Virus record (IMG/VR): IMGVR_UViG_3300009551_000021
Span: 1 to 50,972 of that record
DNA length: 50,972 nt
Reading direction: 5' to 3' (one strand)
Source: a virus
Of the stretch, positions 11,097 through 31,054 are shown one piece after another. The position numbers and the translations under genes are program-made. How positions within the stretch are numbered: position 1 is the first letter of the stretch; every line of letters begins with the position of its first letter. The notes beneath the pieces were generated by a model. That model worked only from the letters and a program-made list of their open reading frames with translations, made no database searches and had not been told where the DNA came from.

Positions 11097-11125
11097 ACTA
11101 TACTGACCAAGGCGTCAGTTTTCAA
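11097..11125 (-). promoter_or_regulatory. Leftward sigma70-like promoter with palindromic operator (site A)
   Basis: On the minus strand: TTGAAA, 17-nt spacer, TATAGT. The spacer holds CTGAC-GCCTTG-GTCAG (11103-11118). Upstream of the -35 lies the conserved AAACTGTGACGT block, which holds the stop codon of the 11129 gene. It would drive the operon from 11069 to 9710. Confidence 0.8.
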
Positions 11126-11128
11126 GAA

Positions 11129-11344
11129 TCACGTCACAGTTTGAATTTTTGCTACTTTTCCCCACGCTTCCGAAGCTGTGGCTCCGTATCCAAGAGAGGG
11201 ACTTATCTGGTCGTATTCTTCCTTCGAAGGCACCGTGGGGCGGATACCATCGAGAGTTACGCGGTACAGACGAGAGCCCGGCCACAGCTCGAAGCATTTA
11301 GCCTTAGGGTATTGGCGCAAGACAATCTGTTTAGCGTTCTTCAT
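11129..11344 (-). CDS. Small hypothetical protein
   Basis: A 71-aa protein with a YRVTLDGIRPTVPSKEEYD core and a C-terminal LGYGATASEAWGKVA segment, a pattern common in small phage proteins of unknown function. It sits alone between two copies of the repeated promoter/operator: one drives it, and its stop codon lies inside the conserved flank of the next. CGGAG precedes the ATG by 8 nt. Confidence 0.65.
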   Translation of the reverse strand: MKNAKQIVLRQYPKAKCFELWPGSRLYRVTLDGIRPTVPSKEEYDQISPSLGYGATASEAWGKVAKIQTVT

Positions 11345-11370
11345 GAAGGAACTCCGTAGACAGTGAAGCC

Positions 11371-11399
11371 AGTATACTGACGCTTTGGTCAGTTTTCAA
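11371..11399 (-). promoter_or_regulatory. Leftward sigma70-like promoter with palindromic operator (site B)
   Basis: On the minus strand: TTGAAA, 17-nt spacer, TATACT. The spacer holds CTGAC-CAAAGC-GTCAG (11377-11392). About 60 bp around it (11357-11417) match site D near 28501-28560 with roughly three mismatches. It drives the 71-aa gene starting at 11344. Confidence 0.85.
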
Positions 11400-11407
11400 G
11401 AACTACG

Positions 11408-11644
11408 TCACAGTTTATGGAATCGACGCCAAAAACAGCCACCGGCCTCGATGCAGCCCCATGGGCGAACGCAACGAACCTCAAAAGCTGAACCGCCACT
11501 AAGACCGTCACCGCAGACTAGGGTACAGGGTAGGCCGTTCTTGCGTTCCTCGATAAGCTGTTCCCGCTCACTCCCACTTCCCGTATCGGTGGGTTTCGTC
11601 TGCGCTAGGTGCTCGCACGGGCCAAGGTCTACCCCAATCGTCAA
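11408..11644 (-). CDS. Possible small Cys-rich ORF overlapping the polymerase 3' end
   Basis: The frame is open from inside the polymerase 3' end to a TGA at 11408 that lies in the conserved flank of promoter B, just as real gene ends do at other copies. There is no good ATG; TTG 11644 would give 78 aa. The C-terminal part has several Cys residues (PCTLVCGDG, VRCVRPWGC). The start is uncertain and the gene may not be real. Confidence 0.3.
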   Translation of the reverse strand: MTIGVDLGPCEHLAQTKPTDTGSGSEREQLIEERKNGLPCTLVCGDGLSGGSAFEVRCVRPWGCIEAGGCFWRRFHKL

Positions 11645-13931
11645 TTGCCCAGTCTTTTCGTCTATTGACGATAGACAGATACTCGTCTGTAGAGCCCTTG
11701 CCATTTTCGACCTCGGTGACGTTCTCATCGTGGGCATGATGTACGGGTAGGTAGATACCCGTTTTTTCCAACATGACTAGAGTGTCGGCTTGAAATTCCC
11801 GGTGTACCTTGGCAACGATGTTTTGCGTAGCAACGCCGCCGTAGAAATCCATTCGCACCCAGCCGGTTCTTCCTTTTTTGGCTTGTTGGGTGTTCCAACC
11901 AACATAGGTCAGAATCTTTTCCCACGGGCGCGCATACTCTCGGGTTGACTGCTCCAGACGAGGTTCGTGGTAGATTAGCGGGGCTCCGCCTCCAGGCGGC
12001 ATGCAATACAACACGTCGTTGTGTACCTGATAGCGTATTCCGCGATAGGGGTAGCATACGCCCGGATTCATTACGGCTTGCACTGCTGCACCTTCGAGCC
12101 CATAGTACTCCTGATACTCATTCGCTCTACGCCCGAATCTATCCCGACCGAATCGATTGCGGGTCTGTCCGCCCCACAGCTCGCAGATGTTGGGATTCTT
12201 AGCCCAGGTCATGAAAATGAGTTTCTTGACATCCTCGTCGGACCCTAGGATCCCTTCATCGTCAAACCTGCGCCAACCGCCTATGTAGGCTCCGAATCCA
12301 TTGGCTAGCGTGGGGATCTTGCCATAGAGTTGACGGTCAGGGTGATGTTTGCCATTGGCTTCCCGATAGTCAATATAGTATTGAACAGGCTTACCCGTAA
12401 GCTGAGAGGCGGTTTCCAGGTAGATTTGACCTCCACTGTGGAATACGTCGAGCTGCCACTTCTCTCCCGCCAGTGCTGCAGTAATCACAGCTTGAATAGC
12501 GTTATAGTCCGCAGTGATCAGACGACAGCCTGGACGGGCAATGATCATAGACCGTAGACAGTTAGCTATGACATCCAAAGCTTCCATGGGCTTGTTGTCT
12601 TTAGAATCCCATGGAGGACCTTGCGCGAATACCTGTTCTACGAATTCCAGATTACGACTGGCCAGGACGCTTAAGGCAAATTCAACTTGTTCCGGCTTGT
12701 TGAATTTACCCTTGTACAGGTTCATGACCTGAGGCCCTTGGCCCGCCCAGTGGTGGGTATGGTTTGCCGCAAACGCGAACATGTCCCGCAAACGGCCATC
12801 GGGGCAGGTTTGAAGGTACATTCCATTGAGCTTTTTTACACTACCAAAGCTTAGTGTGCGGCGTATCTCAAGCACACGCTTGACTGCAGTGGTGTGATTC
12901 TTGGTCAGTTCTTCTTCAACGGTATCCTCGTCTAACTCGTCTAGGTATACTCCCTGTGTCTTCAACCAATCCAGGGTTTTCTGTACTTTGTTGAAGGTAT
13001 CAACGTAACCGTTGGTTATCCGGGAAAGCTCAGCATTGTACTTGGTTGTGGCCTGTTCAATGATGGCTAGACAATTCTCCACGGATACGAGGTCGATTTG
13101 CATGCCCCTATGGTTAATCCGCTGGTCAACTAGCCAACGCTCAATCTCTAGTACTGGCATGTCCGGAATCTTGGAGCTTGCCTCAGATTCCGCCATGATG
13201 TCCTGAATATTGTAAGCGTCGAATTTGGCGAAGTCTTCAGGCGCGGTCTCGCGCGTCCAACACCGGCCCGCATCCTTTTTAGTAGGCTCTTTGGGGACGG
13301 TCAGTTTGTTGATGAGTCTTTTGCCTTCGGAGTCCTTTTGATTGGATAGCCGTAGAACTTGTCCAGTTTGTTCCAATTTCCGCGGGTAGCCGGCTACGGT
13401 AGACTTAGCCATGCAACAACGTTGTTGGTCCAAATATAACGGAGGCCAACCCAGTTTAGGGACGCAATATAGGTTCCATACACACGATTCAAAGAATACG
13501 TTCCACGCTTCGAGAAGACCGTCTATACAATCCAACGGCTGGCCGGGGCGGTAGCATTTAATCCAGTTAAAGAGGTCTACGGGATCGGGGAACCCCGGCC
13601 GCCAGATTCGTGCACCTTGACCGTTTTTCAGGTTATAGGCGAGCTGAGAGATACGAAACGTTGGATGCAGAACGTAGTTATACGTACCTACAACGGTAAG
13701 CCCATACTTACCTTTGCCTGCGTAGCGGAGCCCTTCGAGCGCTACTGTAGGCTCAACCCAAACCTGTTCAGTAAAAATTACGCCCTTGCGTTTGCGGGTG
13801 ACTTCTTTCCAGTAACCGGGAACATCAACCCATTGGTAGCCAGCTTCACTGTAGGTCTCAAAATCCCCTTCGGGCAGTATTGTTGTAACTCCGTGCATGA
13901 CGGAGAATTGCTGACCGACCGTAGCTAACAT
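11568..13931 (-). CDS. Family A DNA polymerase with 3'-5' exonuclease domain
   Basis: A 787-aa replicative polymerase. The exonuclease domain shows Exo I as DFET (Asp23, Glu25), an Exo II-like NVFFE and Exo III as YNIQD. Polymerase motif A is ADYNAIQAVITAALAGE, motif B is RQLYGKIPTLANGFGAYIGG, and motif C is HHAHDENV. The GK...GYxGG form of motif B is typical of phage family A enzymes distinct from bacterial Pol I; there is no 5'-nuclease domain. Motif A has Asn where Pol I has Ser, and motif C has Ala-His before Asp-Glu. ATG 13931 has GGGGG upstream; a later ATG at residue 12 is possible. It is transcribed with the SSB-like and DUF2800 genes. Confidence 0.92.
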   Translation of the reverse strand: MLATVGQQFSVMHGVTTILPEGDFETYSEAGYQWVDVPGYWKEVTRKRKGVIFTEQVWVEPTVALEGLRYAGKGKYGLTVVGTYNYVLHPTFRISQLAYNLKNGQGARIWRPGFPDPVDLFNWIKCYRPGQPLDCIDGLLEAWNVFFESCVWNLYCVPKLGWPPLYLDQQRCCMAKSTVAGYPRKLEQTGQVLRLSNQKDSEGKRLINKLTVPKEPTKKDAGRCWTRETAPEDFAKFDAYNIQDIMAESEASSKIPDMPVLEIERWLVDQRINHRGMQIDLVSVENCLAIIEQATTKYNAELSRITNGYVDTFNKVQKTLDWLKTQGVYLDELDEDTVEEELTKNHTTAVKRVLEIRRTLSFGSVKKLNGMYLQTCPDGRLRDMFAFAANHTHHWAGQGPQVMNLYKGKFNKPEQVEFALSVLASRNLEFVEQVFAQGPPWDSKDNKPMEALDVIANCLRSMIIARPGCRLITADYNAIQAVITAALAGEKWQLDVFHSGGQIYLETASQLTGKPVQYYIDYREANGKHHPDRQLYGKIPTLANGFGAYIGGWRRFDDEGILGSDEDVKKLIFMTWAKNPNICELWGGQTRNRFGRDRFGRRANEYQEYYGLEGAAVQAVMNPGVCYPYRGIRYQVHNDVLYCMPPGGGAPLIYHEPRLEQSTREYARPWEKILTYVGWNTQQAKKGRTGWVRMDFYGGVATQNIVAKVHREFQADTLVMLEKTGIYLPVHHAHDENVTEVENGKGSTDEYLSIVNRRKDWAIDDWGRPWPVRAPSADETHRYGKWE

Positions 13932-13950
13932 CTAACCCCCAAAGCTCTAA

Positions 13951-14013: not shown

Positions 14014-14031
14014 CTCGAACTTGTCAGACGT

Positions 14032-16115: not shown

Positions 16116-16227
16116 GCTCTACCTCATTATCATAGTACCAACGAGCGCCCCAACTGGTTAGAACAATATACCCGCCGGGGCGCTCGAAAATTTGGATACC
16201 GGGGCTTTTCCAGTATCCGCCATCCAC
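16057..16227 (-). CDS. Small hypothetical protein
   Basis: A 56-aa frame from GTG 16227, overlapping the stop of the upstream gene (TAGTG), to TAG at 16057. It is protein-like (GYWKSPGIQIFERPGGYIVL, then SWGARWYYDNEVEHV) and rich in aromatic residues. It overlaps the DUF2800 start by 59 nt, long for this genome, so it could be incidental. It would otherwise fill the 111-nt gap between the two genes. Confidence 0.4.
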   Translation of the reverse strand: MDGGYWKSPGIQIFERPGGYIVLTSWGARWYYDNEVEHVACTSDAQQVESDSCLPR

Positions 16228-17324
16228 TACAGCACCCCTAACGCTGCAGCCTCCACAGACTGTTCGACCGCCGCAATGAGGTGAGACATGTTGTTCAGCG
16301 CCATCAGTGACGGAGCCCCGTTAAGCTGGCAGAGTTCTGAGACCTTGGACGGCGCCAGTTTCTGTTGCCGAATGTATTCGGTAATTTTGTCTATGAGCGC
16401 ACGGTATGGGCTTGTGCCCACAGCCCCAGCGGCGGGTGGAGGCGGAACGGGCACAGGTGCGGCAACTGGCGGTGAAGGCACCGCGGGAGCGGCGGCTCCA
16501 TTCGCGACCGGGGGCACAGGCACCGAATTGACAACGAGGGGGATTGCGCTTCCGTTGTCCAGGGGGAGTCGGTTGTCACTGGGTGCGACTGGGGGAAGGG
16601 GCACCGGCGATGCCACGGACGGCGCCGCTCCCGCCTTACGAGCTGCAGCAAGTTCGGCCGTTACAGCCTGAACGAGTCCAGGAGACTTCTCCTCGATTCC
16701 CTTGATGAGTTTCCATGTTAGATCCTTCTTTTTGTTCTTTCCTTTCTGATGAATGCGCGCGTCCCACGGCATTCCTGCCGAATCAAGTTCAATGGCTCCC
16801 GTCGGGGCTGTGGCAGCAGAGACAACATGAGGTGCAGCCACCGCAGTTTGAACAGGCGCCGGGGGTTGAGTCGACTGCGCCGCAGTATTCGCAGCGGGCG
16901 GGGGCGGCACGGTTCCCGCTGTTGGAAAATTTACGACGTTACTCGGACTGTCATCATCGTCGCTGTCGTTGGTCGGCGCGGCCGGCGGAGGCGGGGGCGG
17001 CACGCTAGACACAGGCGCCGATGCCGTGGGGACGGGCGGTATCGGAGAAGTATTCGCCACAGCCGAAGCAACGGGCGGCGGGGAAGGAACAGGTGCAAGG
17101 TTCTTGGCATTGGGGAAAAGTTCGGCGATAGTTGCGCCTTTGGCCAGTGTCGAGGCTTCATCTACTACGGTCATTTTCACGGAGGCGTTAGTTCCTTCGG
17201 GAACTGTGGTCTCCTCCCCCATGTCGCCGATAGCATGCAGGAGAAAGTAAGCTGCGGCGCGGACCATCTGAATCCGCTTAGGGTCCTCAGTTACGATATC
17301 TTCGTTGTCAATACTAAGATGCAT
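16227..17324 (-). CDS. Ala/Pro-rich phage protein, replication-module associated
   Basis: About 365 aa. The frame opens at 17384, but its first codons overlap a promoter; ATG 17324 has CCGGAG 6 nt upstream and is preferred. The N-terminal 80 residues (MHLSIDNEDIVTEDPKRIQMV...) are globular and are followed by long Pro/Ala linkers. A middle motif, SAGMPWDARIHQKGKNKKKD then LTWKLIKGIE, is a recurrent phage pattern (PWDxRIH...K...W...RG) of unknown function. The C-terminal helix bundle (SPYRALIDKITEYIRQQKL) may be an interaction domain. It is the first gene of the SSB/polymerase operon. Confidence 0.7.
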   Translation of the reverse strand: MHLSIDNEDIVTEDPKRIQMVRAAAYFLLHAIGDMGEETTVPEGTNASVKMTVVDEASTLAKGATIAELFPNAKNLAPVPSPPPVASAVANTSPIPPVPTASAPVSSVPPPPPPAAPTNDSDDDDSPSNVVNFPTAGTVPPPPAANTAAQSTQPPAPVQTAVAAPHVVSAATAPTGAIELDSAGMPWDARIHQKGKNKKKDLTWKLIKGIEEKSPGLVQAVTAELAAARKAGAAPSVASPVPLPPVAPSDNRLPLDNGSAIPLVVNSVPVPPVANGAAAPAVPSPPVAAPVPVPPPPAAGAVGTSPYRALIDKITEYIRQQKLAPSKVSELCQLNGAPSLMALNNMSHLIAAVEQSVEAAALGVL

Positions 17325-17355
17325 TGTGTACTCCGGTTGTGCTGATGAGGGGGCC

Positions 17356-17384
17356 ATATTGACCGTCGCGTCAGTTTCTGTCAA
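17356..17384 (-). promoter_or_regulatory. Leftward promoter with variant operator (site I)
   Basis: On the minus strand: TTGACA, 17-nt spacer, CAATAT. A related palindrome (CTGAC-GCGACG-GTCAA, 17359-17374) overlaps the spacer and -10. It sits between divergent genes, so a bound protein could affect both the leftward polymerase operon and the rightward helicase operon. Confidence 0.65.
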
Positions 17385-17413: not shown

Positions 17414-19153
17414 ATGCTACGGGATTTCCAGGCTGAGGCGCAGAACGGGATTTTCGCCGCATGGCAAGAACCCAATATATTCAACGTTGGGGTTAATCTA
17501 CCTACGGGGGGTGGCAAAACTGTCCTTATGGGGGACACTATCGTCAAGATGGATAGGCCAACGTGTGCCATTGCGCATAGGCAGGAACTCGTATCCCAGG
17601 TTTCGTTGGCACTGAACCGGGAAAATGTGTCTCACGATCTGATAGCCCCCAAGCCCATACGCCAGCAGATAATTCGTCTGCATCACGAAACCCACGGGTA
17701 TTCCCGGTACCGTCATAACTCTCCTGTCCGTGTGGCAGGAGTTGATTCCCTACGAGAGTCGGACAAGGATCGTTGGTTCAACCAAGTGGGGCTTACTATC
17801 ATAGACGAGGGACACCATGTTTTGCGGGATAATAAGTGGGGTAAGGCGTTTGCTCTCTTTCCTAATTCGCGCGGTTTGTTTCTGTCTGCTCATTTTCTGC
17901 GGGCTGACGGTCGTGGCCTTGGTCGTACCGCTAGCGGTCTTGTTGATAAGCTTATTCTTGGTCCTAGCGCTCGTGAGCTTATTTCTAGGGGCTTTTTGAC
18001 TGACTACGATATCTACTGTCCCGAGTCAGATGTCGATTTCTCTGATGTTCCGATAAGCCCTACTACGGGCGAATACATACAGCCTCAACTTCGTGCGGCC
18101 ACTCACGAATCACGGCACCTCGTAGGTGATGTCGTAAAAGAATATCTGCGTCTTGCGAATGGCAAGTTAGGAGTTACCTTTGCGGTCGATATTGAAGAAG
18201 CCAAAAAAATCGCAGCGGCGTACAACGCAGCGGGTGTGCCGGCTGAAATCATTACGGCCAAGACTCCGATTTCTGTTAGATCCCAATTCATGCGTCAATT
18301 TAAGGCTCGTGTTCTGTTACAACTTGTCTCCGTCGATTGCCTTGGCGAGGGAGTCGATGTACCCGCAATTGAAGTGGTGTCTCTTGCGAGGCGTACTGCG
18401 TCGTTCCAAGTCTACGCACAGCAGATTGGTCGCGCACTCCGCCCCATGCTTGAGGATGTCGCATTCAATGGCGCACCGGTATGGGAAGTCTGGAATACAT
18501 TGACCGATGCACAGCGCATGCATTTTATCGGTGTTTCCAAAAAACCCAAAGCGATCGTCATAGATCATGTGGGTAATACAAGCTACATGTCCCAACGACA
18601 TGGTCGCCCCTGTTCCCGACAAAACTATGAACTGGCAGATTTACCGCGTAAAGCCAGCGTGTACCGAGGGGATTCGCTCAAGACGTGCACCAACCCGGAC
18701 CCCCTATGTTTAAAAGCATACGAAAGGTTTCGCACGGAGTGTCCTTACTGCCATTACGTTCCCCCAGTTGTAAGTCGCATGTCCATGGAGCAGGTAGACG
18801 GAGACCTTACCTTATTAGATCCCGCTGTTCTGGACGCCATGCGACAGGATGTTGCTAAACTTGATGGACCCCCACCTCAGGTATTTGAGGGGGCTGTCGG
18901 GGGAGCTATTCTCAAAAACCACTACAATCGACAGCGGCACCAAGCTGAGTTACGTCGCGTGATGAATCTATGGGGCGGTTGGAGGTTATATCTGGGAGAG
19001 ACCTTGCGTGAAGGTCAGAAACGGTTTTACCTTACCTTCGGGATTGATGTGATGTCAGCTTGCGCTCTTGGGGCTTCCGAAGCTGACGCATTAATGGCTA
19101 GAGTGCAGGCGGATTTGACATCGAATAATGTTGTAGAGGCGCAGGCAGCATGA
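17414..19153 (+). CDS. SF2 DNA helicase
   Basis: A 579-aa superfamily 2 helicase. Walker A is PTGGGKT (residues 30-36), motif II is DEGHH, motif III is LSAHF in place of the usual SAT, and motif VI is QQIGRALRP. Near residue 430, CTNPDPLC, then ECPYC, form a probable zinc ribbon, as in phage replicative or recombination helicases of this type. It heads a rightward operon with a nuclease and the primase-helicase. The GGGGCGAG ribosome site is 3 nt before ATG. Confidence 0.88.
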   Translation: MLRDFQAEAQNGIFAAWQEPNIFNVGVNLPTGGGKTVLMGDTIVKMDRPTCAIAHRQELVSQVSLALNRENVSHDLIAPKPIRQQIIRLHHETHGYSRYRHNSPVRVAGVDSLRESDKDRWFNQVGLTIIDEGHHVLRDNKWGKAFALFPNSRGLFLSAHFLRADGRGLGRTASGLVDKLILGPSARELISRGFLTDYDIYCPESDVDFSDVPISPTTGEYIQPQLRAATHESRHLVGDVVKEYLRLANGKLGVTFAVDIEEAKKIAAAYNAAGVPAEIITAKTPISVRSQFMRQFKARVLLQLVSVDCLGEGVDVPAIEVVSLARRTASFQVYAQQIGRALRPMLEDVAFNGAPVWEVWNTLTDAQRMHFIGVSKKPKAIVIDHVGNTSYMSQRHGRPCSRQNYELADLPRKASVYRGDSLKTCTNPDPLCLKAYERFRTECPYCHYVPPVVSRMSMEQVDGDLTLLDPAVLDAMRQDVAKLDGPPPQVFEGAVGGAILKNHYNRQRHQAELRRVMNLWGGWRLYLGETLREGQKRFYLTFGIDVMSACALGASEADALMARVQADLTSNNVVEAQAA

Positions 19154-19927: not shown

Positions 19928-20433
19928 CCTTCTTTGAGTGGCTCGTGAAGTGGAACATACCCCCGCAGGCGTTGAAAGAGCTTGCAGACTCCTGCGTATA
20001 CCTGGGGCCTCCGGAGGAGAATCAAGCCCCGGAAGAAACTGTACAACGCGAACTCCGATTGGAAGCGGCTCGACTGGGCAAATATCTCTTCCGAAACAAT
20101 CGCGGTGCAGGCAAAATTGAAGGGGAGAGCCGCTTCATCCGTTGGGGTCTTGCCAACGATTCAAAGAAGGTGGGGGATACCGTCAAATCCGCTGACCTCA
20201 TCGGACTCGAAACGGTGTTTGTTACTGTGGACATGGTGCTCGACGCCATCAACCAAGGTCTACCCGGATATAAGGTCGGACGCTTTCTGTCGGTTGAGGC
20301 CAAACGCGCCAATTGGAAATGGAGCGGCACACTTGAAGAGGTAGCTCAACTCAAATGGGCAACGTTTGTCAATGATGCCGGGGGCCGGGCAATCATCACC
20401 AACCGTACGGGTATTCTTGAGACGTTGACCTAA
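19924..20433 (+). CDS. VRR-NUC domain nuclease
   Basis: A 169-aa protein. The VRR-NUC pattern is clear in residues 35-160: EETVQRELRLEAARLGKYLFRNN, GAGKIEGESRFIRWGLANDS, SADLIGLE, VGRFLSVEAKRANWKW (Glu-x-Lys of the active site) and Q-K-W-A...GGRAII. VRR-NUC enzymes are PD-(D/E)XK Holliday-junction or flap nucleases; phage forms usually lie in replication modules, as here. Residues 1-35 are an extra helical extension. Confidence 0.88.
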   Translation: MTFFEWLVKWNIPPQALKELADSCVYLGPPEENQAPEETVQRELRLEAARLGKYLFRNNRGAGKIEGESRFIRWGLANDSKKVGDTVKSADLIGLETVFVTVDMVLDAINQGLPGYKVGRFLSVEAKRANWKWSGTLEEVAQLKWATFVNDAGGRAIITNRTGILETLT

Positions 20434-20461
20434 TCGTCAGTCCGCAGTAAGGTAAATGACC

Positions 20462-20752
20462 ATGATTCTGAAAGACACAATTTTGAACGCAGCAGTGACC
20501 ATCGCCCGCAATTATGGGCTTCGAAGTCTCACACGCCAGACTGTTGCTACAGCTTCAGCCTGCGCCGTGGGTACCGTCAATTATCACTACGAGACCATGG
20601 ACCTGTTACGCGATGCCGTCGTTGACTACGCAGTAGAGCATGAAGTGATTGAAGTTCTGGCGCAGGCTCGCGCCGAACGACATCCGCGTTTGAAGGGGAG
20701 GCTCACCGCTGCGCTGAAAGAACGCGTGGCTGCGCACATTGCCGGAAAGTAA
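20462..20752 (+). CDS. TetR-like HTH regulator, short
   Basis: A 96-aa protein; ATG 20462 lies 9 nt from AAGG and is preferred to an ATG at 20456. The N-terminal 50 residues (ILNAAVTIARNYGLRSLTRQ, then TVATASACAVGTVNYHY) match the TetR-family helix-turn-helix, ending in the usual VNYHY segment. The ligand-binding domain is missing: only about 45 residues follow, against about 140 in normal TetR proteins. It is a candidate regulator of the repeated operator, which is not demonstrated. Confidence 0.75.
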   Translation: MILKDTILNAAVTIARNYGLRSLTRQTVATASACAVGTVNYHYETMDLLRDAVVDYAVEHEVIEVLAQARAERHPRLKGRLTAALKERVAAHIAGK

Positions 20753-23469: not shown

Positions 23470-23533
23470 CCTTCGTGCAGTCGGGGGTTGACACTTCACG
23501 AGAGCCAGAATTCTGAGGCCGCCGGGAGGGCTT
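23444..23533. terminator. Large inverted repeat between convergent operons
   Basis: A perfect 22-bp inverted repeat (23444-23465 and 23512-23533, core GCCCTCCCGGCGGCC) separated by 46 nt. It lies between the rightward replication operon and the leftward accessory block and includes the last codons of the gene at 23287 and one base of the 23533 stop. On the plus strand it is followed by only three Ts. It probably acts as a two-way transcription barrier. Confidence 0.65.
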
Positions 23534-23721
23534 TACTCGTCGCCTTCCTTCGGAAGCTGATTGAATCCGATGAATGGGGCAACGCACATCGAGACCAGCA
23601 CCGACACGCAAAGGACAATGACGATATGGGCTATTACGTACATGCCCCTGGAGTATCTACCCGAACTGACGACTGCGTCAAGAGGCTTGTTTCTTGAAGA
23701 TCCAGTCCGCCGGTAAGACAT
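23533..23721 (-). CDS. Small single-span membrane protein
   Basis: A 62-aa protein with one strong membrane segment (YVIAHIVIVLCVSVLVSMCV, residues 28-47) and a basic N-terminus, so probably N-in. An internal ATG at residue 27 would give a 36-aa form. It overlaps the upstream gene by 44 nt. Function unknown; it is the last gene of the leftward accessory block. Confidence 0.5.
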   Translation of the reverse strand: MSYRRTGSSRNKPLDAVVSSGRYSRGMYVIAHIVIVLCVSVLVSMCVAPFIGFNQLPKEGDE

Positions 23722-24140: not shown

Positions 24141-24857
24141 CTAGGTCCCCCTATGCAGTTGCGGGATTCCCACGCGGGTACGCTGCACCACGCGTTCGGG
24201 CGGGGGCCTGGAGCTGGCGGCGGGTTCCTCTTCTTCCTCCCCATTGGCAAGACTGTCGAGGACTTTCTGCAGCTCATCCATGATGGCCTCGATATCCTCC
24301 TGCGCCGCCTGGGGGTCGGTCTTGGCTTTACGCCCGATGGCGCGCAGCAGAGAGCCTGTCGCGCGCTGTATCTGTCGCTCCACTCGATCAGCGGGCTCTG
24401 GAGGCGCGATAGCCGCCCGCAGTCCGGTCTTCGTGGTAGTGGCGGGATCGAGAGTGCGCAAATCCCCTCCGCCCTTCACGAACGCTGCCAGCGTGCTCAT
24501 CGATGTTCTGGCAAATGCCGATCGGCTGTTGCGTTCCAGGCTGCGCCGCCGTTGCTCCGTTGAGTCCAATGAGGAATCGTGGGCGACATCCTCGGTAGTT
24601 ACCCCGCGCAACACGGCGGCATAAAACGTACTGTGAACCGCAGACAGCACAGAAAGCTGAGCTTCCATGTCCGGTTTAGGACCTCGGCGAGGCCGTCCGA
24701 GTTGCGCCTGAACCGCTACGAGTATCACCCGCAGGTAGGTTCCGTCAATGCTGGCGACGGTTACGGCGTTGGCATAGCGCTCGTGGGCTAGCGTCTCAAC
24801 GTCGTCCTCGGTCGCGACCCAGTGCCCCTTGGTCAGTTTAGCGGTAATTGTAGTCAT
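24141..24857 (-). CDS. Hypothetical protein with acidic C-terminal linker
   Basis: A 238-aa, largely helical protein. Residues 75-100 (EAQLSVLSAVHSTFYAAVL) and 180-210 (AQEDIEAIMDELQKVLDSLA) are helices, followed by NGEEEEEPAASSRPPPE and a basic end. The N-terminus (ITAKLTKGHWVATEDDVETL) is a small beta-alpha unit. GGGAG precedes ATG 24857, and promoter variant F lies just upstream. No family recognised. Confidence 0.6.
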   Translation of the reverse strand: MTTITAKLTKGHWVATEDDVETLAHERYANAVTVASIDGTYLRVILVAVQAQLGRPRRGPKPDMEAQLSVLSAVHSTFYAAVLRGVTTEDVAHDSSLDSTEQRRRSLERNSRSAFARTSMSTLAAFVKGGGDLRTLDPATTTKTGLRAAIAPPEPADRVERQIQRATGSLLRAIGRKAKTDPQAAQEDIEAIMDELQKVLDSLANGEEEEEPAASSRPPPERVVQRTRVGIPQLHRGT

Positions 24858-24873: not shown

Positions 24874-24902
24874 GTTGTACTGACGTAAGTGTCAGTATCC
24901 AG
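24874..24902 (-). promoter_or_regulatory. Leftward promoter/operator variant (site F)
   Basis: Minus strand: CTGGAT, 17 nt, TACAAC, with CTGAC-ACTTAC-GTCAG (24880-24895) in the spacer. Both hexamers are weaker than in sites A-E. It lies directly before the 24141-24857 gene. Confidence 0.55.
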
Positions 24903-24979: not shown

Positions 24980-25003
24980 AAAAAACTGACGCTTTGGTCA
25001 GTT
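24980..25003 (-). terminator. Terminator made from an operator palindrome (site G)
   Basis: On the minus strand AACTGAC-CAAAGC-GTCAGTT is followed directly by a run of Ts (six in all counting the last stem bases), 5 nt after the stop codon of the HNH gene. It has the operator core but no promoter hexamers, so it may end HNH transcription and may still bind the operator protein. Confidence 0.55.
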
Positions 25004-25008
25004 CCATT

Positions 25009-25410
25009 TTACAAAGACAGCTCTAATTGATACGGGTTCCATTTACCCGATTTGCTGGCGTTCTGCGCACGGGTGATAACACGGAGGTTCCACGGGACGG
25101 TAAGCCCGCACACGTCAGGGTGGTTCAGGGGGATGATATGGTCTACGACGTGTTCAACGCCTGTCGCAAGCGTTAGGAATCGGGCGTACTCATGGAGACG
25201 TTTGAGGTGATTACGGCTAACCCACGAGGGGGTAGCCAGGATCGCCTGACGTATATAGGTGCGTCGTTTGTGAACGCGAAGCCAGTCAGGTTCAACCCCT
25301 TGAATCAGCCAGGGCCGAAGCGAGGGGTTGTAGTATTTGGCAACACTCAAGACGGGAGTACAAGTAACGGGGGTCCGGAGGGGTAACCCGCCGTACGTTC
25401 GTTGAGCCAT
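25009..25410 (-). CDS. HNH endonuclease
   Basis: A 133-aa HNH nuclease. The motif VEHVVDHIIPLNHPDVCG (Asp-His), then VPWNLRVITRAQNASKS (Asn-Leu, Asn), matches free-standing phage HNH enzymes. It may be a homing nuclease or a genomic nicking enzyme; being far from the terminase genes, a packaging role is less likely. It overlaps the upstream gene by 64 nt at the 5' end, so a later start is possible. Confidence 0.82.
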   Translation of the reverse strand: MAQRTYGGLPLRTPVTCTPVLSVAKYYNPSLRPWLIQGVEPDWLRVHKRRTYIRQAILATPSWVSRNHLKRLHEYARFLTLATGVEHVVDHIIPLNHPDVCGLTVPWNLRVITRAQNASKSGKWNPYQLELSL

Positions 25411-25808
25411 TCTATCAGGTGTATGGCGTCAACTTCCTCATAGGTACTACGATGTTCTTGATCCGGCACGAATGAGAAGTCGAGCCCGTGACCAAATCCA
25501 AATATTCTGTCGTCACTCGTATCACGTATGTAGTGATGTCCCGCGAACTTGGCTATCGCGTAGCGTTTGCTGTCTGATGTCAGCTTCAGATTCTGTTCAC
25601 TCCACCAAAATTCTACGCAGGAGGTGGAAGGGAGGCGTTTATCAGTGAGTCGTATCATTACTAGCCCCACGTTTTCGGCGTACGCCGCAGATTCCGTGTG
25701 TTTGATAGGAATGATTTCCGCCTGCATCCCGGAAGATACGCCCCACCCTGCCGCGGCATGGGGGACGCTGGTAATGGTAACTTTATCCCCTGGTTTGAAT
25801 TTACTCAT
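25347..25808 (-). CDS. Hypothetical protein with SH3/KOW-like N-terminus
   Basis: A 153-aa protein. ATG 25808 overlaps the upstream stop (ATGA) and is preferred to GTG 25817. The N-terminus (SKFKPGDKVTITSVP...) reads as an SH3-like barrel that could bind protein or RNA. The rest (HYIRDTSDDRIFGFGHGLDF, DAIHLIEWLNERTAG) is unassigned. A leftward accessory gene of unknown role. Confidence 0.6.
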   Translation of the reverse strand: MSKFKPGDKVTITSVPHAAAGWGVSSGMQAEIIPIKHTESAAYAENVGLVMIRLTDKRLPSTSCVEFWWSEQNLKLTSDSKRYAIAKFAGHHYIRDTSDDRIFGFGHGLDFSFVPDQEHRSTYEEVDAIHLIEWLNERTAGYPSGPPLLVLPS

Positions 25809-26335
25809 AGTGCGCACCCATGTTGCCTGTTATTGTAGACCGCAATTCCTGAGAAAGTCAGAGATGCAGCGTGCCAAACGATTCGGGCAGTGTACCAACC
25901 GCCTCCGCGGTGCCTCGCTACTTCATCGTCCAGCCATGAGGTGACCATGGTGTGTACGGTAGCCAGAGCTATGTTAGTCAGCAGTACGCGTCGGGCACTG
26001 GGGTATTCTCCGCCGTAGATTCTCACGGCTACCGGGTCTGTTTCACGGTCGCAAGAGTGATAGACTGTGGGGCTGCGATCCCTGGCGATGTGCATGGTCT
26101 GCATCGTGTCCACCGCGTCCAATACCAGCCAAGCACCCTCAGCCATGTTGCTGTTGTATTGTTCGTTTTGGGGCTGAAACGGTATGGGCAGCATCGCACA
26201 GCCTTGGAGGGAATACCACAACAAAATAACCATTCCCCAAAACGCTATACGAAACGGCCAGCGGGCAAGACGTACGAACGAACTAAGAGACGCGCCAATA
26301 ACCGCAGCAAGAATAATTGTGAGAAACAGTTTCAT
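25805..26335 (-). CDS. Membrane protein with lipobox-like motif
   Basis: About 176 aa from ATG 26335; the frame extends to 26389, but ATG 26335 is 2 nt from the upstream stop and begins a typical membrane segment (KLFLTIILAAVIGASLSSF). A second segment (IAFWGMVILLWYSLQGCA) ends in LQGC, a possible lipobox after two spans. The soluble part has HSCDRETDPVAVRIYGGEYPS and a C-terminal helical region. Function unknown; perhaps superinfection exclusion. Confidence 0.5.
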   Translation of the reverse strand: MKLFLTIILAAVIGASLSSFVRLARWPFRIAFWGMVILLWYSLQGCAMLPIPFQPQNEQYNSNMAEGAWLVLDAVDTMQTMHIARDRSPTVYHSCDRETDPVAVRIYGGEYPSARRVLLTNIALATVHTMVTSWLDDEVARHRGGGWYTARIVWHAASLTFSGIAVYNNRQHGCAL

Positions 26336-26337
26336 AG

Positions 26338-26481
26338 TCAGCCTTCCACATAGCCTAAAATAACGGCCAACATCGCAATCAGTGCCCAAGGGAAAAACGG
26401 AATTTTCTTGCCGGTGTTGTGTTGACCTGTGCCAAACCCTAAAAGTAGGCTACCATACGCGATGAGCATCTTGTGCAACAT
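26338..26481 (-). CDS. Small two-span membrane protein
   Basis: A 47-aa protein with AGGAGGG before ATG 26481. It has two hydrophobic stretches (KMLIAYGSLLLGFGTG and PWALIAMLAVILGYVEG) around a basic turn (TGKK). It sits between two leftward genes with spacers of 2 nt on each side, so it is almost certainly translated. No family recognised. Confidence 0.6.
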   Translation of the reverse strand: MLHKMLIAYGSLLLGFGTGQHNTGKKIPFFPWALIAMLAVILGYVEG

Positions 26482-26483
26482 AC

Positions 26484-26696
26484 TCAACCCTCCTGTGGAA
26501 CCGCAGCCTTTTCCATGGCTACAACGAATTTAGCCCATGACTCGTTGCGCTTGTCGTCACAAACACCGGCTGTCCAGAAACCGTTTGTTTCTCCTACGGT
26601 GATGGCGCACATCTCGGTCACAAAGGTCAATACCGCTAGAAGCGTAGGATCTTTGTTACCCCGCACTATAGCGGCTTGGATTTCCTCCGGGCTCAT
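26484..26696 (-). CDS. Small hypothetical protein
   Basis: A 70-aa protein (MSPEEIQAAIVRGNKDPTLL, then NESWAKFVVAMEKAAV). The EEIQAAIVRG start is helical. It overlaps the upstream gene by 4 nt and is 2 nt from the next. No function assigned. Confidence 0.55.
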   Translation of the reverse strand: MSPEEIQAAIVRGNKDPTLLAVLTFVTEMCAITVGETNGFWTAGVCDDKRNESWAKFVVAMEKAAVPQEG

Positions 26697-26878
26697 TTGC
26701 GCACCAACGTCAACCGGGGGGCTTTTGGGGGTGGCGCCTCGTACACTTCGCTGATGAGCGCGGCTTCGACATAAGCCCGCACTCGTTGTGTGCGCTCCAG
26801 CTTACGCAGAAACGCAGACTTCGGAGTCAATCGTTTCTGAATCTCTGGGTCCGCGTATCCATGACGAAATCGTTTCAT
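26693..26878 (-). CDS. Small basic hypothetical protein
   Basis: A 61-aa, basic protein (MKRFRHGYADPEIQKRLTPK, then ERTQRVRAYVEAALI) with a Pro-rich tail. AAGGTGAT precedes the ATG. It could bind nucleic acid. It is the first gene of a run of four overlapping or adjacent small genes that continues leftward. Confidence 0.55.
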   Translation of the reverse strand: MKRFRHGYADPEIQKRLTPKSAFLRKLERTQRVRAYVEAALISEVYEAPPPKAPRLTLVRK

Positions 26879-26902
26879 ACATCACCTTGTGTAGCGTTCA
26901 AG

Positions 26903-26932
26903 GGTGCGGCACTCGTGGGATGAGCCCGCACC
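26903..26932. repeat. Intergenic hairpin
   Basis: The inverted repeat GGTGCGG / CCGCACC (26903-26909, 26926-26932) fills the gap between the 26941 stop and the 26878 start. No T-tract follows on either strand. It may lower read-through or stabilise mRNA ends. Confidence 0.4.
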
Positions 26933-26940
26933 ATTCAATG

Positions 26941-27183
26941 CTACTTGATTACTGAGACTCCGGGCTCCCCTAGCGTAACACTCCCATGCACGTTAGGAAA
27001 CGACCATCGGTTGGGTTCTACCTGTACAGGGATCGTTTTAGGACCACCCCCTTGAACAACTGTAATGGAATCCACGAGACGGTAGACGTATGTGATGCCA
27101 CCCACGGTGCGGAACAAGCGAAGCTGACTCAACGAATACCGAATGGGCCGGGATCGGGGCGGCTCCCGGTAGAAGTCATCCAT
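26941..27183 (-). CDS. Small hypothetical protein
   Basis: An 80-aa, beta-rich protein (SQLRLFRTVGGITYVYRLVD, SITVVQGGGPKTIPVQVEP). A GGAGG site lies in the overlapping upstream gene. No family recognised. It belongs to a compact leftward chain with the 27176 and 27361 genes. Confidence 0.55.
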   Translation of the reverse strand: MDDFYREPPRSRPIRYSLSQLRLFRTVGGITYVYRLVDSITVVQGGGPKTIPVQVEPNRWSFPNVHGSVTLGEPGVSVIK

Positions 27184-27355
27184 TGGCTTTTACCTCCTGT
27201 ATCTCAATCCGGTCACCTACGGAGAGAACCCATTTTTCCGCATGCATGACAGCCAAGACTTCACGGGCGCAGTCTTCGGGGTTCTTGGCTCGAAACTCCA
27301 CACGGTCAAGTTCGGCCCCGTGGGAACCAATCATCACCAGATTTAACGTTTTCAC
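27176..27355 (-). CDS. Small hypothetical protein
   Basis: A 59-aa alpha-beta protein from GTG 27355 (GGAGG 9 nt upstream) to TGA at 27176, overlapping the next start by 8 nt. It reads KTLNLVMIGSHGAELDRVEF, then AKNPEDCAREVLAVMHAE and VLSVGDRIEIQEV, a plausible small fold resembling other phage proteins with a DxVxFxAxNPEDA core. Function unknown. Confidence 0.6.
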   Translation of the reverse strand: MKTLNLVMIGSHGAELDRVEFRAKNPEDCAREVLAVMHAEKWVLSVGDRIEIQEVKANG

Positions 27356-27360
27356 GTGCG

Positions 27361-27738
27361 CTAACCTCCAATAAACAGACAGTGATTGTTGAATACTATT
27401 CTAGCGTACACCATGGTTCGGACCTGTTTGGGGTACGCCGTAGCCAGGAACTTCAACGCTACTTTTTTGGATACCTCCACGTTGCCCTTGATTTCTAACC
27501 CGCGTGTGGTGCCGGCGGGTGCACCTTCCTGATTGATACTACGGGCGAACCAGCCGGCCCAGATATACATCCTACGTCCTAGAGAGCATTTTACCAGTCT
27601 CTCCAGTTCAGGCATGGCCACCTCGAACTCACGCAACGGGTCTGAAGTGATCATTTCCCCCTCGATGGGCTCGCGCGGTATTTCGCGCCCTACCGGAACA
27701 AGGGAGTTCCCGAAACGTCTCACGGCAACAGGCTCCAC
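27361..27738 (-). CDS. Hypothetical protein; start uncertain, open frame extends to about 27929
   Basis: A 125-aa frame from GTG 27738 (REFEVAMPELERLVKCSLGRRMYIWAGW...). The same frame stays open another 190 nt upstream without ATG, GTG or TTG. That extension would encode CPNEHSYRCGVCRPCR, a convincing zinc-ribbon pattern, then YDRLRIQIRAPRGYHAHKLE, which leads smoothly into the annotated part. Either the true start is non-standard, or a frameshift (sequencing or programmed) joins ATG 27848 or ATG 27934 to this frame. Function unknown. Confidence 0.55.
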   Translation of the reverse strand: MEPVAVRRFGNSLVPVGREIPREPIEGEMITSDPLREFEVAMPELERLVKCSLGRRMYIWAGWFARSINQEGAPAGTTRGLEIKGNVEVSKKVALKFLATAYPKQVRTMVYARIVFNNHCLFIGG

Positions 27739-27848
27739 TTCGAGCTTGTGCGCATGATATCCACGCGGTGCGCGAATCTGAATCCGGAGACGGTCGTATT
27801 CCGGAACGCGGCACGGACGGCAAACACCACAGCGGTACGAATGTTCAT
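27720..27848 (-). CDS. Possible 42-aa leader ORF
   Basis: Starts at ATG 27848 with a strong AGGAG 9 nt upstream and ends 18 nt inside the next gene. The peptide (MNIRTAVVFAVRAAFRNTTV) is not clearly protein-like. The good ribosome site more likely serves the zinc-ribbon frame that overlaps it by a shift, or the peptide couples translation to 27738. Confidence 0.35.
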   Translation of the reverse strand: MNIRTAVVFAVRAAFRNTTVSGFRFAHRVDIMRTSSKWSLLP

Positions 27849-27942
27849 TTGGGCAATCTCCTATCGGTCTTGACGGGTACGCCAGCCCACGGGTCAGGGC
27901 GGCCTGGCGTTTGGTTGTAGGGGTCGCAGTTCATGGAGAGGA

Positions 27943-27971
27943 AGTATACTGACGCTTTGGTCAGATTTCCA
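27943..27971 (-). promoter_or_regulatory. Leftward sigma70-like promoter with palindromic operator (site C)
   Basis: Minus strand: TGGAAA, 17 nt, TATACT, with CTGAC-CAAAGC-GTCAG (27949-27964) in the spacer. The stop of the upstream gene (27980) lies in the conserved flank. It would drive the 27.8-26.9 kb cassette. Confidence 0.8.
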
Positions 27972-27979
27972 GAACTACT

Positions 27980-28489
27980 TCACAATCCCGGTACATCGAG
28001 CGCACCGGGGATACGCAGCCCGTACTGTTTGCGATCGAGTTTCAGGTTATTGTAAACATGAAACTCCGCAGCTTTCGCAGTACGGGAGCGGAAAGTTCTA
28101 ACCGTCTGGTCGGTTGCGCGATCAAAGACCTCGTAGAGCGGCCAAAGGTCTTCGCTTTCCATGTTTGCATCGTTGGCACGCTTCGCTTCGGCAGCGGCCC
28201 GCATGAGGTCTTCGTTGGCCGTCTGATTCACCGCCATAACGACTTCCCTGGTAACCAAAATGTCATGCCCCAGGCTTTTGCAGCGAGCTATGAAGCTGTT
28301 GGCAGCTCTCTCAGCGCGGGCCTCGCTGGTAGCGAAACCGGTCTTCCACATGATTGAACCTTTATGGCAGGTGGAGCGATTCCGGCTAGCCTCAGCACGC
28401 ACCAGCCACGCGTGGGTGTACTGGGCGTCACTGGTGCGTTCCTGGCAGAGGCCGGTCGAGAAGTTCGCGGTAAACTTGGACTTGCCCAT
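27980..28489 (-). CDS. Hypothetical protein, single-gene cassette
   Basis: A 169-aa basic protein (SEARAERAANSFIARCKSLG, DILVTREVVMAVNQ, RTFRSRTAKAAEFHVYNNLK). AGGAGATCC precedes ATG 28489. It has its own promoter/operator (site D), and its stop codon falls in the flank of site C, so gene plus promoter look like one transferable unit. No family recognised. Confidence 0.65.
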   Translation of the reverse strand: MGKSKFTANFSTGLCQERTSDAQYTHAWLVRAEASRNRSTCHKGSIMWKTGFATSEARAERAANSFIARCKSLGHDILVTREVVMAVNQTANEDLMRAAAEAKRANDANMESEDLWPLYEVFDRATDQTVRTFRSRTAKAAEFHVYNNLKLDRKQYGLRIPGALDVPGL

Positions 28490-28514
28490 GTGGATCTCCT
28501 TAGACAGTGAAGCC

Positions 28515-28543
28515 AGTATACTGACGCCTTGGTCAGTTTTCCA
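28515..28543 (-). promoter_or_regulatory. Leftward sigma70-like promoter with palindromic operator (site D)
   Basis: Minus strand: TGGAAA, 17 nt, TATACT, with CTGAC-CAAGGC-GTCAG (28521-28536) in the spacer. About 60 bp match site B almost exactly, 17 kb away. Confidence 0.85.
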
Positions 28544-28546
28544 GAA

Positions 28547-29083
28547 CTACTTCACAGTTTCAGGCTTGAGATACGGTCTTGGCCAATACCGCACGGTTTC
28601 AGGCAGAGCGTAGGGCCTCAGCGCATCCGATATGCGGTTGGCGGCGTTCCAGCACGCCCGGCTGACCGATTGGAAAGTGCCGGAGCAGACCGCGTAGTAG
28701 GCATCCTCCGCTTCCTCACGCGTACGGATAATGAGACGCGAAGAGGAACGCTGGGCGACCACATGCACGTGGGATTCCTTAGGCCGGTTTCGCGATCGAA
28801 TGAGCAGCTCGTCTTCGTATGAGCCGCGTTCACACTCGATCAGCTCTTTCAACACCGCAGCCCGTACGTTGAGAACGATGCATGCGCCATTCGCAGCATT
28901 GATTCTGTCACAGTACGCCTGGGCACGCTCCAACGTGGGATGGGGTTTATGGGCCTTCCAATTGAGTATGTGCCACATTGACGGATCTACAGTACTGCAA
29001 CGGCAGATTTCGTAGCCCATGTCCTGCCAGGGACCGCTAGGAATTTTCCTGGGAAAGAGAGTATCCGGTTTCAGAAATGTCAT
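28547..29083 (-). CDS. Hypothetical protein
   Basis: A 178-aa protein of mixed alpha-beta character (GYEICRCSTVDPSMWHILNW, ERAQAYCDRINAANGACIVL, EEAEDAYYAVCSGTFQSVS). GAGG precedes ATG 29083. Its last codons (ACT GTG AAG TAG) form part of the conserved block upstream of promoter D. No function assigned. Confidence 0.6.
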   Translation of the reverse strand: MTFLKPDTLFPRKIPSGPWQDMGYEICRCSTVDPSMWHILNWKAHKPHPTLERAQAYCDRINAANGACIVLNVRAAVLKELIECERGSYEDELLIRSRNRPKESHVHVVAQRSSSRLIIRTREEAEDAYYAVCSGTFQSVSRACWNAANRISDALRPYALPETVRYWPRPYLKPETVK

Positions 29084-29091
29084 GTTGCACC

Positions 29092-29514: not shown

Positions 29515-29518
29515 GGGG

Positions 29519-29627
29519 TCTCCCCCTCCTTACCCTATTAAATGTATATTAAGTATGCCCCACCCCGATCATCTTAACAACCCTTATATACTAATTTCGC
29601 ATTTAATAGTGTTAAAAGAGGGGGAGA
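29519..29627. repeat. 109-bp AT-rich dyad between divergent operons
   Basis: Outer arms TCTCCCCCTC / GAGGGGGAGA (29519-29528, 29618-29627) and inner arms CTATTAAATG / CATTTAATAG (29535-29544, 29600-29609) surround an AT-rich centre with TATATTAAG and CTTATATACT. It separates the leftward accessory block from the rightward late operon. Minus-strand hexamers TTGTTA-N17-CATACT are present. It is a candidate origin or two-way control region. Confidence 0.6.
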
Positions 29628-29644
29628 GCACCCCCTACCCATTT

Positions 29645-29678
29645 GCAGCTTGCAAGTTCCAAGTTGCACGCAGCTTGC
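29645..29678. repeat. Short direct and inverted repeats upstream of terminase
   Basis: GCAGCTTGC occurs at 29645-29653 and 29670-29678, flanking the dyad TGCAAGTTCCAAGTTGCA. Iteron-like repeats directly before the small terminase gene could be a packaging (pac) or replication-protein site. Confidence 0.45.
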
Positions 29679-29704
29679 GGTGTCGTGGGCGAGCTTAAGC
29701 GTCG

Positions 29705-29734
29705 TTGACCCCCATCACGCTTTTAAGATATTGT
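29705..29734 (+). promoter_or_regulatory. Possible rightward late promoter
   Basis: TTGACC, 18 nt, TATTGT (a 17-nt spacer gives ATATTG). It is the best promoter match before the terminase gene. Just downstream, GTAAGT-GCAG-ACTTAC (29758-29773) forms a short hairpin in the leader, with a second ACTTAC near the ribosome site. Confidence 0.4.
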
Positions 29735-29792
29735 GTATTAGAACTTTATTAGCAACCGTAAGTGCAGACTTACTGTTAGCGAGGACTTACCG

Positions 29793-30698
29793 ATGTCGAG
29801 ACCGAGGAAAAAAATACCGCGTGTGCCCCAGCCGGGCGATACACCGTTAATTCCCGTGGGAACTACCGCAAGTATTCCGCGGGGCAATCCTACGTTGCAG
29901 GAGTTGCAAAAGCCTCTTACTGAACAAGAGGAAACGTTCGCACGCTTGTTTACGCTTTACGGTAATGCAACACGTGCGTATATCGAAGCTGCGCAGTACG
30001 AGGGGCCGCGGCACATAGCGCGTGCCCAGGCGTGGGGATTGACTAACAAACCTCACATACGTGCGCGTATTCGTGAGTATGAATCCACCGCTGCGGCAGC
30101 AACAGTCATTGACTACGCGGCTATCCTGGAGCATGACAGAGCCATCGTTGAGGGGTACAAACACGCGGATCAGGTTACGCAGTACTTACATCAGTGTTGC
30201 AGATACTGCTACGGCAAGGAGCATCGATATCAGTGGATTGACTTCGAGGAGTACTTGGGCGCGCTCGGGAAGACAGAAGATCTGAACGTGCGCAGAGCGG
30301 AGTTTGGTCAACGGTCGTTACCCATGCCCAGTGATGCGGGAGGTTACGGCTACGATTCCAACGCGGAGCCTAACTTGTTCTGCCCACGTTGTGAGGGGCG
30401 GGGTCATCAAGTTGCAGTGATCGCCGATACAACCAAACTTGAAGGGCCAGCCAGGGCGATTGTCAAGGGGATCAAGGTAACATCCACTGGCACCGAGGTG
30501 CTGTTTCACGACATCGATAAGGCCAAGGAGCGGCTCTTACGTGCCGGGGGCTACTTTGGGGACGATGCTGCCAGCGTGGCTCGTGGAGCGGCGGCAGGGG
30601 CGGCGGCGGGGGCCGCTGCGGCTACGGTGGCGGCAGCGCAGCGGGCTAAGGATATGACGTTGGACGAGGCGCAGCGTCTGTATCAAGAGCTTGCCTGA
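29793..30698 (+). CDS. Terminase small subunit
   Basis: A 301-aa TerS. Residues 38-95 (LTEQEETFARLFTLYGNATRAY, then NKPHIRARIREYE) are the N-terminal DNA-binding helices typical of this family. The middle has a zinc-site insertion (HQCCRYCYGKEHRYQW, later CPRCEGRGH). The tail includes KAKERLLRAGGYFG and an Ala/Gly-rich stretch. TerS chooses the packaging site; the repeats at 29645-29678 are possible targets. The large subunit follows after an intervening leftward gene. Confidence 0.85.
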   Translation: MSRPRKKIPRVPQPGDTPLIPVGTTASIPRGNPTLQELQKPLTEQEETFARLFTLYGNATRAYIEAAQYEGPRHIARAQAWGLTNKPHIRARIREYESTAAAATVIDYAAILEHDRAIVEGYKHADQVTQYLHQCCRYCYGKEHRYQWIDFEEYLGALGKTEDLNVRRAEFGQRSLPMPSDAGGYGYDSNAEPNLFCPRCEGRGHQVAVIADTTKLEGPARAIVKGIKVTSTGTEVLFHDIDKAKERLLRAGGYFGDDAASVARGAAAGAAAGAAAATVAAAQRAKDMTLDEAQRLYQELA

Positions 30699-30729
30699 GA
30701 CATGCTGCGCCTAAACGCACAAATTGAGC

Positions 30730-30767
30730 CCGCAGCAGCACAAGGCGCAATGCTCGGGCTGCTGCGG
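30730..30767 (+). terminator. Hairpin after the small terminase gene
   Basis: CCGCAGCAGC / GCTGCTGCGG (30730-30739, 30758-30767), with an alternative AGCCCG / CGGGCT pairing. No T-tract. It lies between the convergent TerS and the 30774 gene and may separate them or attenuate late transcription. Confidence 0.45.
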
Positions 30768-30773
30768 AATAGT

Positions 30774-30998
30774 TCATGTCTTCGGCGCCTCTTTGGCGTC
30801 TTCGTAGGCCAGGATTTCAAGCCCGAACTGAGTCAGCTCGTAGGTCTTCCCATCGATGGTCCGCTGGATGAGGCCGCGTTTCCACAGCCAAGCCCGATGT
30901 GCTCCGCGGACCAAAAGCGCGTTGCCGTCTCGTATGTCGCGCAAGGCTTTGATGGAGGCGGCCTTGTAGGTGTGCGCGGTGACTTTTCGGATTTCCAT
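30774..30998 (-). CDS. Small winged-helix-like protein inside the packaging module
   Basis: A 74-aa protein. Residues 1-60 (AASIKALRDIRDGNALLVRG, WLWKRGLIQRTIDGKTYELT, then QFGLEIL) show the helix-helix-wing order of small winged-helix proteins. It is the only leftward gene within the late region. Its own operator/promoter (site E) lies just upstream, so it might be autoregulated, and it is a good candidate for the operator-binding protein. That is inference. Confidence 0.65.
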   Translation of the reverse strand: MEIRKVTAHTYKAASIKALRDIRDGNALLVRGAHRAWLWKRGLIQRTIDGKTYELTQFGLEILAYEDAKEAPKT

Positions 30999-31025
30999 CT
31001 TGCGTACCTCGTTGCGAATGGGACC

Positions 31026-31054
31026 AGTGTACTGACCAAAGCGTCAGTTTTCAA
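31026..31054 (-). promoter_or_regulatory. Leftward sigma70-like promoter with palindromic operator (site E)
   Basis: Minus strand: TTGAAA, 17 nt, TACACT, with CTGAC-GCTTTG-GTCAG (31032-31047) in the spacer. Its centre is the reverse complement of that in sites B and C while the flanks keep the same direction. The large terminase gene starts 22 nt beyond the -35, on the other strand. Confidence 0.82.

Follow-up and report, generated by a model that had tools for sequence, protein, structure and literature searches.

Genes in the window and its relatives

The window was the whole 50,972-nt stretch of virus record IMGVR_UViG_3300009551_000021. It carried genes of a contractile-tail phage (baseplate J, terminase and a family-A DNA polymerase), together with replication-type genes for a gp2.5-like ssDNA-binding protein, a DUF2800 exonuclease, a helicase and an NrS-1-type primase. 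Close relatives were collected through searches with the polymerase, primase and helicase. The more distant relatives were named phages. The window had no DNA-level similarity to named phages. No relative of the primase was found among species-representative bacterial and archaeal genomes, which is consistent with a virulent life style. No lysogeny genes were recognised among the window proteins scanned, and a Pfam scan of 20 of them gave no match to HTH_3 (lambda-type repressor).

Palindromic sites in the window

The palindrome TGAC-N6-GTCA occurred 12 times in the window against 0.71 expected, and no shuffle reached 12. Its 16-mer form, CTGAC-N6-GTCAG, had seven exact copies; the reversed-pattern control had none. 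Of all 3,840 pairings of a 4-mer palindrome with a spacing, TGAC with a 6-bp gap ranked first in the window, and the enrichment was restricted to the 6-bp spacing. A motif search over this and related genomes had been proposed in an earlier sequence-only reading of this DNA; in the relatives listed below, too, the palindrome was enriched and the 6-bp gap was specific.

Five sites, A to E, were re-read in the sequence and had, on the minus strand, the hexamers and the exact 17-nt gap described for them before. The -35 hexamer was TTGAAA at A, B and E and TGGAAA at C and D; the -10 hexamer was TATAGT at A, TATACT at B, C and D, and TACACT at E. The 17-nt spacer consisted of (A/T)CTGAC-N6-GTCAG. 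By sequence geometry, these sites are predicted to be promoters in which, as had been proposed, a palindrome for protein binding lies between -35 and -10. The conserved block reached beyond the earlier description: each of the five sites also had TGTGA, 21 nt upstream of its palindrome.

Promoter/operator A (11097-11138, minus strand) comprised TGTGA (11138-11134), TTGAAA (11125-11120), the palindrome (11103-11118) and TATAGT (11102-11097), and headed the genes at 10854 and 10429. Promoter/operator B (11371-11412, minus) had TGTGA, TTGAAA, the palindrome at 11377-11392 and TATACT; it headed the gene at 11129-11344, with a Shine-Dalgarno sequence (SD) and an ATG 26 nt past the -10. At promoter/operator C (27943-27984, minus; TGTGA, TGGAAA, palindrome 27949-27964, TATACT), the ATG of a 29-aa ORF lay 8 nt past the -10 and was followed by the leftward cassette 25009-27848. 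This cassette ended in a gene for an HNH/endonuclease VII-like protein (25009-25410, minus). Promoter/operator D (28515-28556, minus; TGTGA, TGGAAA, palindrome 28521-28536, TATACT) headed gene 27980-28489. Promoter/operator E (31026-31067, minus; TGTGA, TTGAAA, palindrome 31032-31047, TACACT) preceded gene 30774-30998, which by itself makes up a leftward cassette lying between terS and terL. At the same place a plus-strand ORF (30702-31073) overlapped 30774-30998 on the opposite strand; the plus ORF looks spurious; its minus-strand counterpart has an SD as well as promoter E.

Sites F and I kept the core with poor hexamers, as claimed earlier. Operator F (24880-24895, no strand assigned) lay upstream of leftward gene 24141-24857. 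The earlier list of sites A to E, F and I stands but was incomplete, having missed those at 24986, 20425, 23666, 35007 and 45536. The first of these (24986-25001, no strand assigned) was a perfect 16-mer, likewise upstream of gene 24141-24857 and 106 bp from F; the distance was 108 bp in relative G001 and 106 bp in G002. Such spacings are close to ten helical turns, so DNA looping between the two is possible. Operator 23666 (23666-23681, minus) read TTGAC-N6-GTCA with the -10 GATACT; it lay behind the primase gene and was kept there in G001 and G002. About 8 nt past this -10 was the ATG of a small membrane-type ORF of 36 aa (23533-23681, minus). Operator 35007 (35007-35022, no strand assigned) read TTGAC-N6-GTCA with a weak -10, TAGCGT, and is probably a rightward promoter toward 35169-35666. 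Site 45536 (45536-45551, no strand assigned) was an exact core within the long ORF 44158-45918 and may be a chance match.

The sites had been described as a leftward family. This holds for A to E but not for all: operator 20425 (20425-20439, plus; TTGAC-N6-GTCA) faced the rightward gene of a TetR-like protein, and operator I (17359-17374, no strand assigned; TTGAC-N6-GTCAG) lay in the divergent gap between gene 16227-17384 (minus) and the helicase gene 17414-19153 (plus). The TetR-like gene (20456-20752, plus; 96-98 aa, with a second ATG at 20462) encodes the regulator proposed below. Operator 20425, immediately upstream, is a candidate autoregulatory site, and its TTGAC may double as a -35.

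Conservation and promoter geometry

The 6-bp-specific enrichment was found in the window, in genomes G001-G004, G006, G008 and G009, and in phages JD001 (a Jedunavirus), MSW-3, CP-T1, AAM22, PEAT2 and Scuro; genomes G016 and G017 were likewise enriched. Operator counts were 10 in G001, 9 in G003, 24 in G008, 29 in G009, 14 in JD001, 12 in MSW-3, 9 in CP-T1, 13 in AAM22 and 17 in PEAT2. With genes called by a simple longest-ORF rule and figures summed over 13 motif-positive genomes, 76 of 162 exact sites were intergenic (about 7% expected), compared with 11 of 167 for the half-sites placed at wrong spacings.

The -10 was offset from the palindrome by +1 in the window's clade and mostly by +8 or +9 in other clades, and these peaks were absent from wrong-spacing controls. 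In the window's clade the palindrome therefore fills the spacer, whereas in other clades the left half-site TTGAC would itself be the -35. The spacer position claimed for the palindrome thus applies to the window's clade and a few others, and not elsewhere. In both layouts a bound protein would occupy the place of RNA polymerase. Loss of the palindrome in relatives that keep the hexamers had been named as evidence against the promoter/operator reading; the opposite was found, the palindrome being conserved while the -35 hexamer drifts. The sigma-70 features (a fixed -10 offset, a -35 17 nt upstream and a predicted start about 7 nt downstream) were all present, judged on sequence geometry alone. 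Most spacer-type promoters had a start codon with an SD 25-36 nt past the -10. In five promoters an ATG lay 7-8 nt past the -10 (exactly 7 nt at G001 3353, G003 52135, G016 17202 and G017 39529; 8 nt at window site C), which fits the predicted position of the transcription start.

The chance that the sites are non-regulatory, being recently copied promoter cassettes or chance palindromes, is close to negligible. Copying within the window would fit the approximately 45 bp common to A, B, D and E. Against it, the core is retained and its flanks differ between phages that share no more than 35-70% protein identity, the promoter offset and the intergenic enrichment are specific to the 6-bp spacing, and an operator inside the exonuclease gene (see below) is kept by synonymous codons.

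Candidate regulator

Three proteins had been put forward as regulators, of which the TetR-like one held up, its gene being present in 41 of 42 related loci, mostly near helicase/nuclease and primase genes. Neither of the other two, the 74-aa protein (30774) and the winged-helix-like one (10854), had a homologue in any of 41 related loci, and both were rejected for that reason. We identify the TetR-like protein (20456-20752) as the regulator with good confidence.

A profile built from 18 relatives matched TetR-family PDB chains (E 4e-10), and a TetR-type fold was predicted (model pLDDT 93.5). The matches listed by Foldseek against the PDB were TetR-family proteins, including EilR bound to DNA; their E-values reached only about 0.007, since the protein is short. 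Pfam TetR_N matched the single sequence weakly (E 0.012, below the cut-off). The TetR-type N-terminal helix-turn-helix was thus recognised by profile and by structure search. The C-terminal ligand-binding/dimerisation domain (about 150 aa) is absent, and the 98-aa protein ends with two short helices (65-73 and 85-97), through which dimerisation is assumed. For this reason we do not class it as a canonical TetR but call it a minimal TetR-type DNA-binding protein. The lambda-type helix-turn-helix of CI/Cro was not found in it. The protein matched PHROG 8723, annotated as of unknown function, and its family comprised 93 phage records, many of them Klebsiella phages.

In 15 of 19 genomes, 80 nt or less separated an exact site from the start of the TetR-like gene, against 0.40 expected; like the other co-occurrence counts, this one is uncorrected for shared ancestry among the phages. 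Several other genomes had TTGAC-N6-GGCA near this start. A palindromic operator at the gene's own promoter, as in the TetR family, is accordingly present. Genome G017, with 26 sites, had none within 120 nt of its TetR-like gene.

The regulator could be separated from its neighbours by phages that have one without the other. Genome G012 had the replication genes and no TetR-like gene; it had one site and no operator enrichment. Phage PhiPLPE had the TetR-like gene and no detectable homologue of the polymerase, helicase, nuclease, exonuclease, ssb or primase; it had four TTGAC-N6-GGCA sites, three at reverse cassettes and one near terS. A strict 30-base IUPAC pattern of sites A to E was too strict and had no match in viral contigs, and a looser TTGAC-type DNA pattern returned 120 loci, mostly unrelated. 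The blind search by promoter DNA yielded two operator-rich genomes, G016 (11 sites) and G017, both of which encode the TetR-like protein, and five other long records with 1-4 sites each and no TetR-like protein. It is very unlikely that the binder is some other protein shared by these phages (the helicase, the nuclease, the primase or a small protein lacking annotation): such genes are also core to most operator-positive phages, but PhiPLPE has its sites without detectable homologues of them, and of all PhiPLPE proteins the TetR-like one alone had a homologue in each of the 14 operator-positive phages tested.

VP16C, CKB-S1, R9Y1, AeroV and OsaM carried the TetR-like gene without operator enrichment, so the specificity must have changed in those phages. 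No replacement palindrome stood out in VP16C or CKB-S1.

Proposed targets

The earlier proposal of five to seven leftward cassettes under one switch was too narrow, since the TetR-like gene and the divergent replication operons are covered as well. An exact or variant site was found at the TetR-like gene in 22 of 34 cases, and in the divergent replication gap, upstream of the 16227 homologue, in 14 of the 26 relatives scored. For ssb the count was 13 of 21, the site often lying within the terminal part of the exonuclease gene. By table count, an operator headed 20 of 27 multi-gene cassettes opposing the late strand in seven named phages, the arrangement that A to E also have in the window.

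Where an operator is embedded in the exonuclease gene, the codons ATT/GTT GAC nnn nnn GTC are retained; this was seen in CP-T1, MSW-3, Scuro, SppYZU01 and a number of metagenomic phages. The codons used are frequently non-preferred, so selection on the DNA itself is probable. The window's exonuclease gene has no exact embedded site (GTT replaces GTC). DUF2800 exonuclease genes with an embedded operator/promoter were seen in CP-T1, MSW-3, Scuro, SppYZU01, G004, G006, G010 and G013.

The TGTGA element

Of 24 spacer-type promoters (from the window, G001, G002, G003, L091, L105 and G017), 23 had TGTGA at a distance of 21-23 nt on the upstream side of the palindrome, against a background of 0.4%. 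It formed TGTGA-N6-TC placed near -41.5, with a right half that was mostly incomplete, usually TC alone; two G017 promoters had TGTGA-N6-TCACT. The -35 was weak in most TGTGA promoters, and G016 and L092, which lack TGTGA, had TTGCAA or similar. Genome-wide enrichment of GTGA-N6-TCAC was weak, and TGTGA stood out solely by its placement. Class II CRP-dependent promoters have TGTGA-N6-TCACA centred at -41.5. The promoters here resemble them in TGTGA-N6-TC at about -41.5 and in the weak -35, and differ in that the right half-site is incomplete in most of them. The element suggests that in the window's clade a CRP-type activator, probably the host's, helps to start the same promoters; that it is CRP itself is only a hypothesis.

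CRP/FNR sites consist of 5-bp half-sites with N6, a geometry that CTGAC-N6-GTCAG shares, and the adjoining TGTGA looks CRP-like. It is nevertheless improbable that a host factor of this kind binds the palindrome and that the TetR-like gene is a merely linked early gene. The operator-positive named phages have hosts as different as Klebsiella, Vibrio, Edwardsiella, Pantoea, Pectobacterium and Acinetobacter, yet the presence of the site follows that of the phage gene, as seen in PhiPLPE, which has no detectable replication module, and among the genomes from the blind search.

Proposed mechanism

We consider it likely that the phage's own minimal TetR-like protein uses the palindrome as its operator and acts as a Cro-like, genome-wide, self-limiting repressor of early genes in a virulent phage. 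Direct binding, repression and early timing are inferred, and repression rather than activation is favoured by site position and protein family. At the start of infection no repressor would be present, and host RNA polymerase would fire the scattered cassettes, the divergent replication operons and the TetR-like gene. The accumulating protein would bind TGAC-N6-GTCA as a dimer and cover the spacer or the -35, shutting the early promoters and its own gene, and the late genes would then be left to be read.

The same protein might bind the same sites and mainly activate, or do both, in a shift from early to middle expression. Some TetR-family proteins, such as LuxR/HapR, both activate and repress, and in the window's clade weak -35 hexamers such as TAGGAA and TAGCAT hint that these promoters need assistance. 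We regard this as unlikely, because a palindrome in a standard 17-nt spacer or over the -35 favours occlusion, the conserved TGTGA is a better candidate for an activator's site, and a site at the protein's own gene is typical of autorepression.

Combining repression by the TetR-like protein with the TGTGA element gives a more tentative picture, which we put forward with reservation: a two-input early promoter in widespread virulent phages, at which a host CRP-type activator would act at -41.5 and a ligand-free phage TetR in the spacer would terminate expression, with a control copy at each inverted cassette and, in relatives, one inside the exonuclease gene. If so, the CRP-type input would tie early expression to the metabolic state of the host.

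Relation to known systems

The operators of phage 434 are 14 bp long, with 4-bp half-sites and N6. Lambda Cro and the 434 system have in common with the present proposal a small early-expressed repressor and operators inside promoters; they differ in the helix-turn-helix family and in having a tripartite operator, whereas the sites here are dispersed and single. Among other small phage regulators, T7 Gp5.7 is reported to shut early promoters that depend on host RNA polymerase (PMC5569994), and Aca proteins are reported to repress anti-CRISPR operons (PMC9410906). Gp5.7 is winged-HTH-like, while the window's regulator is TetR-like, and Aca proteins control acr operons, while here many scattered operons share one specific palindrome.

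The 'tetR' genes of PhiPLPE, CP-T1 and 138 were described by Comeau et al. 2012 as co-opted bacterial regulators (PMC3391216), in a paper whose main text uses none of the terms promoter, palindrome or motif. These genes and PHROG 8723 belong to the same protein family as the window's gene. No published operator or promoter family tied to these TetR genes was found in the open-access literature. The analysis proposes a function and a DNA target for a family catalogued either without a known function (PHROG 8723) or under the name 'TetR' with no explanation. One operator motif would then predict the early regulon, flag cassettes among the late genes as early, and make early shut-off directly testable in virulent phages that have no CI-type repressor.

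The TetR-family regulators EilR, AmvR, RcdA and EbrR (PDB) share the TetR-type helix-turn-helix and the palindromic operator at their own promoter. The phage protein differs in being 98 aa long without a ligand-binding/dimerisation domain, in its proposed genome-wide regulon, where TetR-family regulators control one adjacent operon, and in having two-HTH versions in relatives. These double-length versions, of about 165 aa, were encoded at L008:9455-9961, L009:9458-9961 and 38065-38565 of L052 (SppYZU01), and carry a second HTH-like domain before the TetR-type one, possibly as a built-in tandem DNA-binding protein. In relative L027 a putative tRNA-like sequence (5100-5183) lay directly upstream of the TetR-like gene.
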